A stretch of 36,562 nt of DNA, from the NCBI GenBank assembly GCA_000434215.1, contig HF999738.1, positions 11,174 through 47,735 of the forward strand, read 5' to 3'. A program made the position numbers and the translations under genes. The notes under the pieces are model-generated. The model was given only the letters and a program-made list of their open reading frames with translations, had not been told where the DNA came from and did not search any database. This document shows positions 9,349 through 10,092 of the stretch, one piece after another; position 1 is the stretch's first letter; each line of letters begins with the position of its first letter. Source of the stretch: Bacteroides sp. CAG:144. Lineage in GTDB: Bacteria > Bacteroidota > Bacteroidia > Bacteroidales > UBA11471.

Positions 9349-9783
9349 TTATTTAATCTCGATTTGTTTTGTACTTCTTACGGGATTTTCTTTTGGCAAT
9401 TTGGGAAGTTCTATCGTCAGAACACCGTCTTTGACAGCCGCCGATATTTTTTCTTTGTCCACGTTGTCGGGCAAAACCATTGTTTGTTGGAATTTGCTGT
9501 AAGAAAATTCCCGACGCAGGTAATGACCTTTTTTCTTGTTTTCGTCTTTGTTTTCGATTTTCTTCTCCATCGAAATGACCAGATTGTTTTCTTCATCGAG
9601 ATGGACGTTGAAGTCTTCTTTTGTCATACCGGGGGCAGCCACTTCTACGGCGTAACCGTTATCATGTTCGACAACATTGATGGCGGGAGCGGTAGCATTT
9701 GTTTTCTCCATCCATTCGGTATCGAAGAAATCATTGAAAATGTCAGGTAACCAACTTTGGTTTTTTCTCATCATAGGTACCAT
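9349..9783 (-). CDS. Small heat shock protein, Hsp20/IbpA family
   Basis: A 144-residue alpha-crystallin-type chaperone that holds unfolding proteins in the cytoplasm. The N-terminal arm (NQSWLPDIFNDFFDTEWM) leads into the alpha-crystallin domain from about residue 33: PAINVVEHDNGYAVEVAAPGMTKEDF, read in two halves, then the family motif AAVKDGVLTIELPK. The C-terminus (VRSTKQIEIK) has an IxI motif (IEI) that docks into neighbouring subunits. The start is placed at 9783 because a near-perfect ribosome-binding site (GGAAAGGAGAT, about 9801-9791) sits 8 nt upstream. A longer in-frame reading to 9858 has no such site. Upstream lies a sigma-54-type promoter. The gene is monocistronic and ends at a bidirectional terminator. 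Confidence 0.92.
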   Translation of the reverse strand: MVPMMRKNQSWLPDIFNDFFDTEWMEKTNATAPAINVVEHDNGYAVEVAAPGMTKEDFNVHLDEENNLVISMEKKIENKDENKKKGHYLRREFSYSKFQQTMVLPDNVDKEKISAAVKDGVLTIELPKLPKENPVRSTKQIEIK

Positions 9784-9866
9784 AATATAATCTCCTTTCC
9801 AGTATTTGTTTAATTGTCTTTTATATGGATTCCGGCTCTTTTCAGAACCGAAATTCACTGTATGAT

Positions 9867-9884
9867 ATGCAAAGTCTGTGCCAG
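9867..9884 (-). promoter_or_regulatory. Sigma-54 (RpoN) type -24/-12 promoter upstream of hsp20
   Basis: On the minus strand 9884-9867 reads CTGGCACAGACTTTGCAT. This matches TGGCACR-N4-TTGCW, with the GG at 9882-9881 and the GC at 9870-9869, exactly 12 bp apart as sigma-54 requires. Transcription would start near 9857 and leave a leader of about 74 nt before the ATG at 9783. The same bases also hold a poorer Bacteroides -7-like AGACTTTG. I found no other good match to the sigma-54 consensus in the window by eye. Confidence 0.6.
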
Positions 9885-9935
9885 TGTCTATTTAGAACAA
9901 ATTCGGTAATAATGTCTTTATTTTCAATGAGATAA

Positions 9936-9988
9936 TGACAAAATTTCTTTTCGTCTGACAAAATTTCACTGTATTGTGTTACAGACGA
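9936..9988 (-). promoter_or_regulatory. Direct and inverted repeats, candidate activator site for hsp20
   Basis: A 12-bp sequence (TGACAAAATTTC in the plus direction) occurs exactly twice, at 9936-9947 and 9956-9967, offset by 20 bp or two helix turns. Next to it is CTGTA-N6-TACAG (9969-9984), and TCGTCTG (9951-9957) pairs with CAGACGA (9982-9988). Relative to the predicted start at 9857 the direct repeats lie at about -79 to -110, where enhancer-binding activators of sigma-54 promoters usually bind. Confidence 0.4.
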
Positions 9989-10092
9989 TCCTTTATATGA
10001 AATACCTGTTTATTCTATTTATGTATGCGAGAGGTTGTGTACCAAGAGTATGATTTTGGGATAAAGGCGAGGAAGAATCATTGTTGTATATA
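9989..10092. other. Gene-free stretch between the hsp20 control region and the ABM terminator
   Basis: The whole hsp20-ABM gap (9784-10151) is 368 bp. Its left part holds the hsp20 promoter and repeats and its right end the ABM terminator. In this middle part I see only an 18-codon ORF (9997-10053) with no supporting signals. Confidence 0.5.

Follow-up and report, generated by a model that had tools for sequence, protein, structure and literature searches.

In gut-type Bacteroidales, the unusual sigma factor RpoN (sigma-54), acting through a shared, predicted activator-binding site, seems to switch on hsp20 and apparently also several further chaperone genes. We analyzed a stretch of 36,562 nucleotides from Bacteroides sp. 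CAG:144 (hereafter, the window) together with related loci, and the hsp20 promoter that it carries appears, from sequence comparison, to belong to a sigma-54 regulon of Bacteroidales chaperone genes whose activator site can be defined. Heat-shock control in Bacteroidota, which are major gut bacteria, appears unsettled; to our knowledge, the RpoH and HrcA systems of model bacteria are not the rule in this phylum. As the shared site comes with a candidate activator and with predicted transcription starts, the proposed model is directly testable in a tractable gut commensal. If it is confirmed, sigma-54 enhancer control of core chaperones would widen the known uses of sigma-54.

The 144-aa ORF downstream of the promoter encodes an Hsp20 small heat-shock protein (PF00011, E 3.4e-24), which bears out the gene identity proposed in an earlier note on this DNA. 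A scan of genome contigs yielded 213 relatives, of which the best 80 loci were kept, many of them close kin. Together with the window, these best 80 of 213 make up the 81 hsp20 upstream regions referred to below, and 414 genes from the same loci serve as controls. Automatic choice of start codons failed or put the site in the wrong place in some loci (e.g., L157, L162, L180, L181, L211), so per-gene counts are rough. The closest relative, L001, has an Hsp20 that is 88% identical and is syntenic with the window at a DNA identity of 71-80%.

The candidate sigma-54 promoter, TGGCACAGACTTTGCA, has its GG (9882-9881) and GC (9870-9869) 10 nt apart on the minus strand, inside TGGCAC-N5-TTGC (Table 1). 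The earlier note had described a -24/-12 site with exact GG/GC spacing, and this site is real: TGGCACRN4TTGCW matches the window 16 times at ≤ 2 mismatches (shuffles average 7.5), and the match before hsp20 is the sole one with zero mismatches. Exact elements lie within 250 nt in 15 of 81 hsp20 upstreams and in none of 414 controls; allowing up to two mismatches raises these numbers to 70/81 versus 12/414, so that the element is conserved before the orthologues. The earlier note had also called for a comparison of the upstream regions of relatives, and that comparison finds both of its elements conserved, the -24/-12 site at ≤ 1 mismatch in 53/81 (best 80 of 213 plus the window) versus 2/414 controls, and the direct repeat as part of a palindrome. 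Eleven of the 81 upstreams have no -24/-12 element at ≤ 2 mismatches, which counts against the model. Among the 67 loci with ≤ 2 mismatches, 44 are non-redundant, and in these the GG, the A of CA and the TTG of the -12 element are invariant, a pattern that the selection of loci at ≤ 2 mismatches favours, though does not force. The rpoN gene was found in all ten relatives' genomes searched. The predicted +1 is 75 nt before the hsp20 ATG, and a start at about 9857 gains independent support because a conserved hairpin begins at 9858.

Table 1. Features of the hsp20 region (positions are those of the window)
Feature	Position	Strand	Basis and remarks
hsp20 CDS	9349..9783	-	144 aa, ATG at 9783-9781; ORF list
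Shine-Dalgarno-like AAGGAGA	9791..9797	-	sequence and fold; outside hairpin
5'-terminal RNA hairpin	9825..9858	-	predicted fold, MFE -16.5 kcal/mol, z -6.4 over +1..+40
Predicted transcription start (+1)	9857..9858	-	12 nt downstream of -12 GC; conserved hairpin begins there
Predicted sigma-54 -24/-12 promoter TGGCACAGACTTTGCA	9868..9883	-	exact match, unique in window, conserved
Possible decayed third activator site AGACATTATTACC	9905..9917	-	-34 from T of TGGCAC
Predicted activator site 2 AGAAATTTTGTCA	9936..9948	-	2 mismatches, 20 bp from site 1, centre ~-84
Predicted activator site 1 TGAAATTTTGTCA	9956..9968	-	1 mismatch to TGACA-N3-TGTCA, centre ~-104

Upstream of the promoter, a 12-bp direct repeat, TGACAAAATTTC, occurs on the plus strand at 9936-9947 and 9956-9967, offset by exactly 20 bp. 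When the upstream regions are aligned by the -24 element, this repeat proves to be part of two degenerate copies of a 13-bp palindrome, TGACA-N3-TGTCA (TGAAATTTTGTCA and AGAAATTTTGTCA). Relatives carry the palindrome two or three times, 20-22 bp apart. A further stretch of the window, AGACATTATTACC, has 4 mismatches, below the scan cut and too poor to count; its position holds a copy of the palindrome in L001, L002 and many Bacteroides relatives. The copies start at -34, -56 and -76 in many Bacteroides, at about -45, -66 and -87 in L007, L014 and L023, and at -65 and -85 in the window, with positions fixed within groups. The 83 pair distances (≤ 2 mismatches, kin loci included) cluster at 20-22 bp (32 pairs) and 41-43 bp (21 pairs), i.e., about two and four turns of DNA.

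At ≤ 3 mismatches, 75 upstream regions contain 187 palindrome sites versus 41 expected from shuffles, and the window alone contains 3 versus 0.97 expected (shuffle fraction 0.05). At ≤ 1 mismatch, 24 of 44 non-redundant hsp20 loci that have the promoter carry the palindrome, versus 12/414 controls; among spacers of 0-8, only a spacer of 3 stands out (24 versus at most 3), and none of the other 1024 possible half-sites does as well as TGACA. When hsp20 and control genes are compared over identical 300-nt stretches, the palindrome occurs in 67/81 versus 13/414, and the -24/-12 element and palindrome together (2 mismatches each) in 58/81 versus 1/414. The upstream activator sites predicted for this sigma-54 promoter are conserved, phased palindromes, and comparative genomics thereby supports the activator-site reading that the earlier note had given to the direct repeat.

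Two other repeats were seen in these regions. Arrays of TTTAAA (≥ 2 copies) are found over the 120 nt upstream of the -24 element in 25/81 hsp20 upstreams versus 11/414 controls (e.g., L020, L047, L049, L052, L056, L062, L074), often where palindromes are few. In 26 of 33 gaps their pitch is 20-21 bp, like that of the palindromes in a different sequence, and this group of hsp20 promoters counts against the palindrome-based explanation. The inverted repeat CTGTA-N6-TACAG, which the earlier note had placed among the activator-site-like elements, is present and exact at 9969-9984, but a functional role for it is unsupported. We give it little weight because it turns up at ≤ 1 mismatch in 31 of 100 shuffles and is not found in the 115 nt upstream of the -24/-12 element of L001; it looks like chance.

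The same palindrome precedes other chaperone genes of Bacteroidales. Counting it at ≤ 2 mismatches upstream of the best -24/-12-like site, regardless of that site's score, we found it before grpE in 8/9 loci, dnaK in 9/11, groES in 6/10 (one cut off, one a second Cpn10-like gene), clpB-type genes in 4/9 and htpG in 3/9, versus 10 of 411 control upstreams of 350 nt; for htpG, a genome-wide half-site scan added G005 and G006. That scan, for a half-site plus promoter (TGTCA-N20-50-TGGCAY-N5-TTGY), gave 23 matches in seven of ten genomes versus 11 with the pattern reversed, and none in G001, G004 and G010. Of these matches, nine are immediately upstream of dnaK (5), hsp20 (2) or htpG (2), and the other 14 are not at chaperone genes (8 inside genes, 6 before another or no clear gene). 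The closest relative's genome, G001, has three exact TGGCAYRN4TTGCW matches only: one at hsp20, one at lon and a third within the end of a gene. In a phylum-wide sample of groES, just 8 of 30 upstreams have a -24/-12 element at ≤ 2 mismatches and just 2 of 30 have the palindrome at ≤ 1. These groES counts, the three genomes without a scan match and the 14 matches away from chaperone genes weigh against the model. Since dnaK, grpE, groES and a subset of the clpB and htpG genes also have the palindrome near a -24/-12-like site upstream, hsp20 is probably part of a sigma-54 chaperone regulon.

We rejected clpC and lon as members of the palindrome regulon: the palindrome is upstream of none of nine clpC and none of ten lon genes, despite their -24/-12-like sites. 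Such sites at ≤ 1 mismatch, free of palindromes, precede 6 of 9 clpC-like genes (L217, L218, L220, L221, L222, L223); for lon they occur at ≤ 1 mismatch in L192 and L195, and lon sites were seen in G001 and G009. Another activator perhaps serves these clpC-like and lon sites.

A search for sigma-54 activators in ten relatives' genomes identified one family common to all ten, of about 390-440 residues (the G003 copy is cut by a contig end). Its AAA+ sigma-54 domain begins about 15 residues from the N terminus (L090: PF00158, E 2.6e-66), with 40-43 residues ahead of Walker A in nine of ten Bacteroidales loci, the tenth being unparsed, and a Fis-type HTH forms the C terminus (PF02954 in 4/4 proteins scanned). 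Pfam recognised no receiver or other sensor domain in the same 4/4. Like PspF, the family has a GAFTGA-type loop in the sigma-54 interaction domain: GSFTGA in L090 and, over 40 loci, GAFTGA in 25, GSFTGA in 8, GAYTGA in 3 and GSYTGA in 2, with 2 unparsed. The gene sits in a cluster with lptE, secG and a gene for an unassigned protein. Beyond this cluster, groES-groEL come next in G005 and a Clp ATPase gene in G010; in G012, G031, G035 and G039, groES is on the same strand, 1.8-3.0 kb downstream. Over 50 genomes, the activator is near groES in 5 and near a Clp ATPase gene in 1, contig breaks not being allowed for. We consider the sensor-less AAA+/Fis protein of the lptE-secG cluster to be the most likely activator of those found, judging by its distribution and neighbourhood.

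Autoregulation of this protein was rejected, as the 300 nt upstream of 7/7 of its genes contain neither a -24/-12 element (≤ 2 mismatches) nor a palindrome (≤ 1). A phylum-wide co-occurrence of the activator with the groES promoter (8/16 versus 0/14, Fisher P 0.003; 12/16 versus 0/14 with a looser cut) was withdrawn in both forms because "absent" meant an alignment ending early, because the cut was picked after both tables had been seen, and because sensor-less homologues with a like HTH also occur in several of the "absent" genomes.

Conserved alignment columns run on past +1 in the hsp20 relatives, where a hairpin with a conserved GYGAAC is predicted at the very start of the mRNA. Over +1..+40, the mean z in 40 non-redundant loci is -2.06, with 19/40 at ≤ -2, versus -0.42 and 9/80 in control leaders, and pairing begins at +1 or +2 in 23/40 loci. 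A MAFFT alignment of 28 hairpins was structurally inconsistent, so covariation was counted on 15 sequences of one layout, picked after the folds had been viewed and not including the window. In this set 94.8% of cells pair and 14 are changed on both sides, values of which neither is reached in any of 500 shuffles; two of the five measures are unremarkable (double-change pairs, 72/500 shuffles; further pair types, 36/500). The covarying inverted repeat could be a DNA operator instead of RNA; its G-U pairs favour RNA without proving it.

A different account of these observations is that the -24/-12 element goes unused, being kept for another reason, and that the primary sigma factor drives hsp20 from elsewhere. 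A local scan found a sigma-70-like pair, TAGACA-17-TATCAT, overlapping the -24/-12 site, as one of 7 such pairs versus 3.7 expected, although a consensus match alone does not amount to function. Bacteroidota, however, use a primary-sigma consensus of TTTG...TAnnTTTG, unlike the E. coli boxes, according to the sections of PMC7366714 consulted. Scanned as TTTG, 15-21 nt and TAnnTTTG, the exact form occurs in 0/81 hsp20 upstreams versus 37/414 controls, and the form with 1 mismatch in 10/81 versus 119/414. Conservation moreover tracks the GG/GC core, and the hairpin begins at the +1 predicted from it. We rejected a primary-sigma promoter for hsp20 on these counts and give this account very little credence; comparative genomics supports the earlier note's proposal that RpoN acts here instead of the primary sigma factor. 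Regulation might also be mainly post-transcriptional, with the 5' hairpin as an RNA thermometer and the promoter incidental. Hsp20 genes of other bacteria use RNA thermometers, and the hairpin here is conserved and covarying. Against this, about 28 nt separate the hairpin from the Shine-Dalgarno region further downstream, which the predicted folds leave unpaired; structure is not in excess over the final 40 nt ahead of the ATG (mean z +0.32, 0/40 at ≤ -2); and of 17 weak Rfam matches over 1.5 kb, none reached the gathering score of its family. Neither the sequestered ribosome-binding site nor the curated-family match of a ROSE- or fourU-type thermometer is present, and we rejected that function as highly improbable. 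With the ribosome-binding region outside the hairpin, 5'-end protection is the better guess, and the hairpin probably protects the end of the mRNA.

A more serious contender keeps the sigma-54 promoter but has the palindromes bound by some other protein, either an AAA+ protein with a receiver domain or a factor outside the AAA+ class. The nine genomes other than G001 each have at least 3 strong activator matches, several of which start like response regulators; sensor-less relatives are also found where groES has no -24/-12 site; and it is distribution and neighbourhood only that link the sensor-less family to the palindromes. That family is nevertheless the one present in 10/10 genomes, lies near groES or a Clp ATPase gene in 6/50, and is the sole strong activator match in G001, an assembly that must be incomplete, since it has no GroES, GrpE or HSP90 matches, so that "only activator" is unproved there. 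We regard binding by another protein as possible but rather doubtful.

The model we prefer, and hold to be highly probable as a whole, joins a sigma-54 hsp20 promoter, an AAA+ activator on a palindrome array, a chaperone regulon, a sensor-less activator and a 5' hairpin. The sigma-54 RNA polymerase would transcribe hsp20 from 9883-9868 with a start at about 9857. An AAA+ activator would bind the phased TGACA-N3-TGTCA array, of which the window has two usable copies, and remodel the closed complex. As the palindrome is common to dnaK, grpE, groES and some clpB and htpG genes, hsp20 would be one member of the regulon. The sequences themselves show the promoter, the site array, the array before other chaperone genes and the hairpin covariation; dependence on RpoN in cells, the identity of the activator, the signal and the role of the hairpin are inferred. 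The activator would be the sensor-less AAA+/Fis protein of the lptE-secG cluster, and the mRNA would begin with a conserved hairpin that guards its 5' end. An activator without a receiver domain is probably controlled in trans; our preferred guess as to the signal is that chaperones would hold it and that it would be freed when unfolded protein accumulates. The earlier note had suggested that, through RpoN, protein-folding stress is tied to some nutrient or envelope signal, for which we find no support: the palindrome precedes chaperone genes, and the candidate activator has no Pfam-recognised sensor. Given the palindrome before dnaK, grpE and groES and a sensor-less activator, RpoN is more simply read as the route of the chaperone (heat-shock) response itself. 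A more speculative extension, which we put forward tentatively and would not bet on, is that sigma-54 serves the entire cytosolic heat-shock response of Bacteroidales, with one chaperone-restrained, sensor-less activator on TGACA-N3-TGTCA arrays upstream of hsp20, dnaK, grpE, groES, clpB and htpG and with 5' hairpins stabilising the mRNAs. If true, this would be a heat-shock circuit in which an ATP-driven enhancer switch replaces RpoH or HrcA.

Several known systems resemble parts of this arrangement. E. coli ibpB is likewise a small heat-shock gene, with a reported sigma-54 promoter beside sigma-32; sigma-32 dominates there, whereas here the sigma-54 site is the promoter that is conserved and similar sites precede several chaperone genes. 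The phage-shock system has, in PspF, a sensor-less AAA+/HTH activator of a sigma-54 stress regulon with paired upstream sites, features that the candidate would share, but the targets here would be cytosolic chaperones and the gene lies beside lptE and secG, in some genomes also near groES or clp. RpoH, HrcA/CIRCE and RNA thermometers provide coordinate control of the same genes (hsp20, dnaK, grpE, groES, clpB, htpG); they differ in sigma factor and site, and the hairpin here leaves the ribosome-binding site uncovered.

The general idea of sigma-54 control of chaperones is already in print. In the sections consulted, PMC12316311 (2025) reports COG-level enrichment of predicted sigma-54 promoters in Bacteroidota before IbpA (COG0071), GroEL/ES and GrpE, and also before DnaJ, DnaK, Hsp90 and three ATP-dependent protease COGs. 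Those sections also describe B. thetaiotaomicron grpE and groES as sigma-54-dependent, citing a reference (number 80) that by its title concerns Blattabacterium nutrition; unlike the present analysis, they name no activator site, activator or RNA hairpin for chaperone genes. The consulted text of PMC3372290 reports that activators without enhancer-binding domains are present in many Bacteroidetes and does not mention heat shock, GroES, GrpE or DnaK, and the consulted main text of PMC7366714 and PMC10994844 does not mention RpoN. In literature coverage that mostly excluded subscription journals, neither the palindrome nor the activator assignment nor the hairpin turned up, and we found no experimental account of Bacteroidota heat-shock control.

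Further sites of similar kind were seen in passing. In G002, a good -24/-12 element at L116:1480-1900 lies downstream of a carbamoyltransferase-like gene and has palindromes close by; no ORF of ≥ 90 aa follows on the same strand, and the product is possibly a small RNA or small peptide. At L306 (G003:C1:29909-29951), a half-site and -24/-12 element lie directly before the gene for a 97-aa predicted membrane protein, a possible further regulon member. The predicted sigma-54 transcripts of groES (L158, L161, L163) and dnaK (L228, L229, L232) likewise appear, by inspection of their leaders, to fold into short hairpins at about +1 to +3 that differ in sequence from the hsp20 hairpin.
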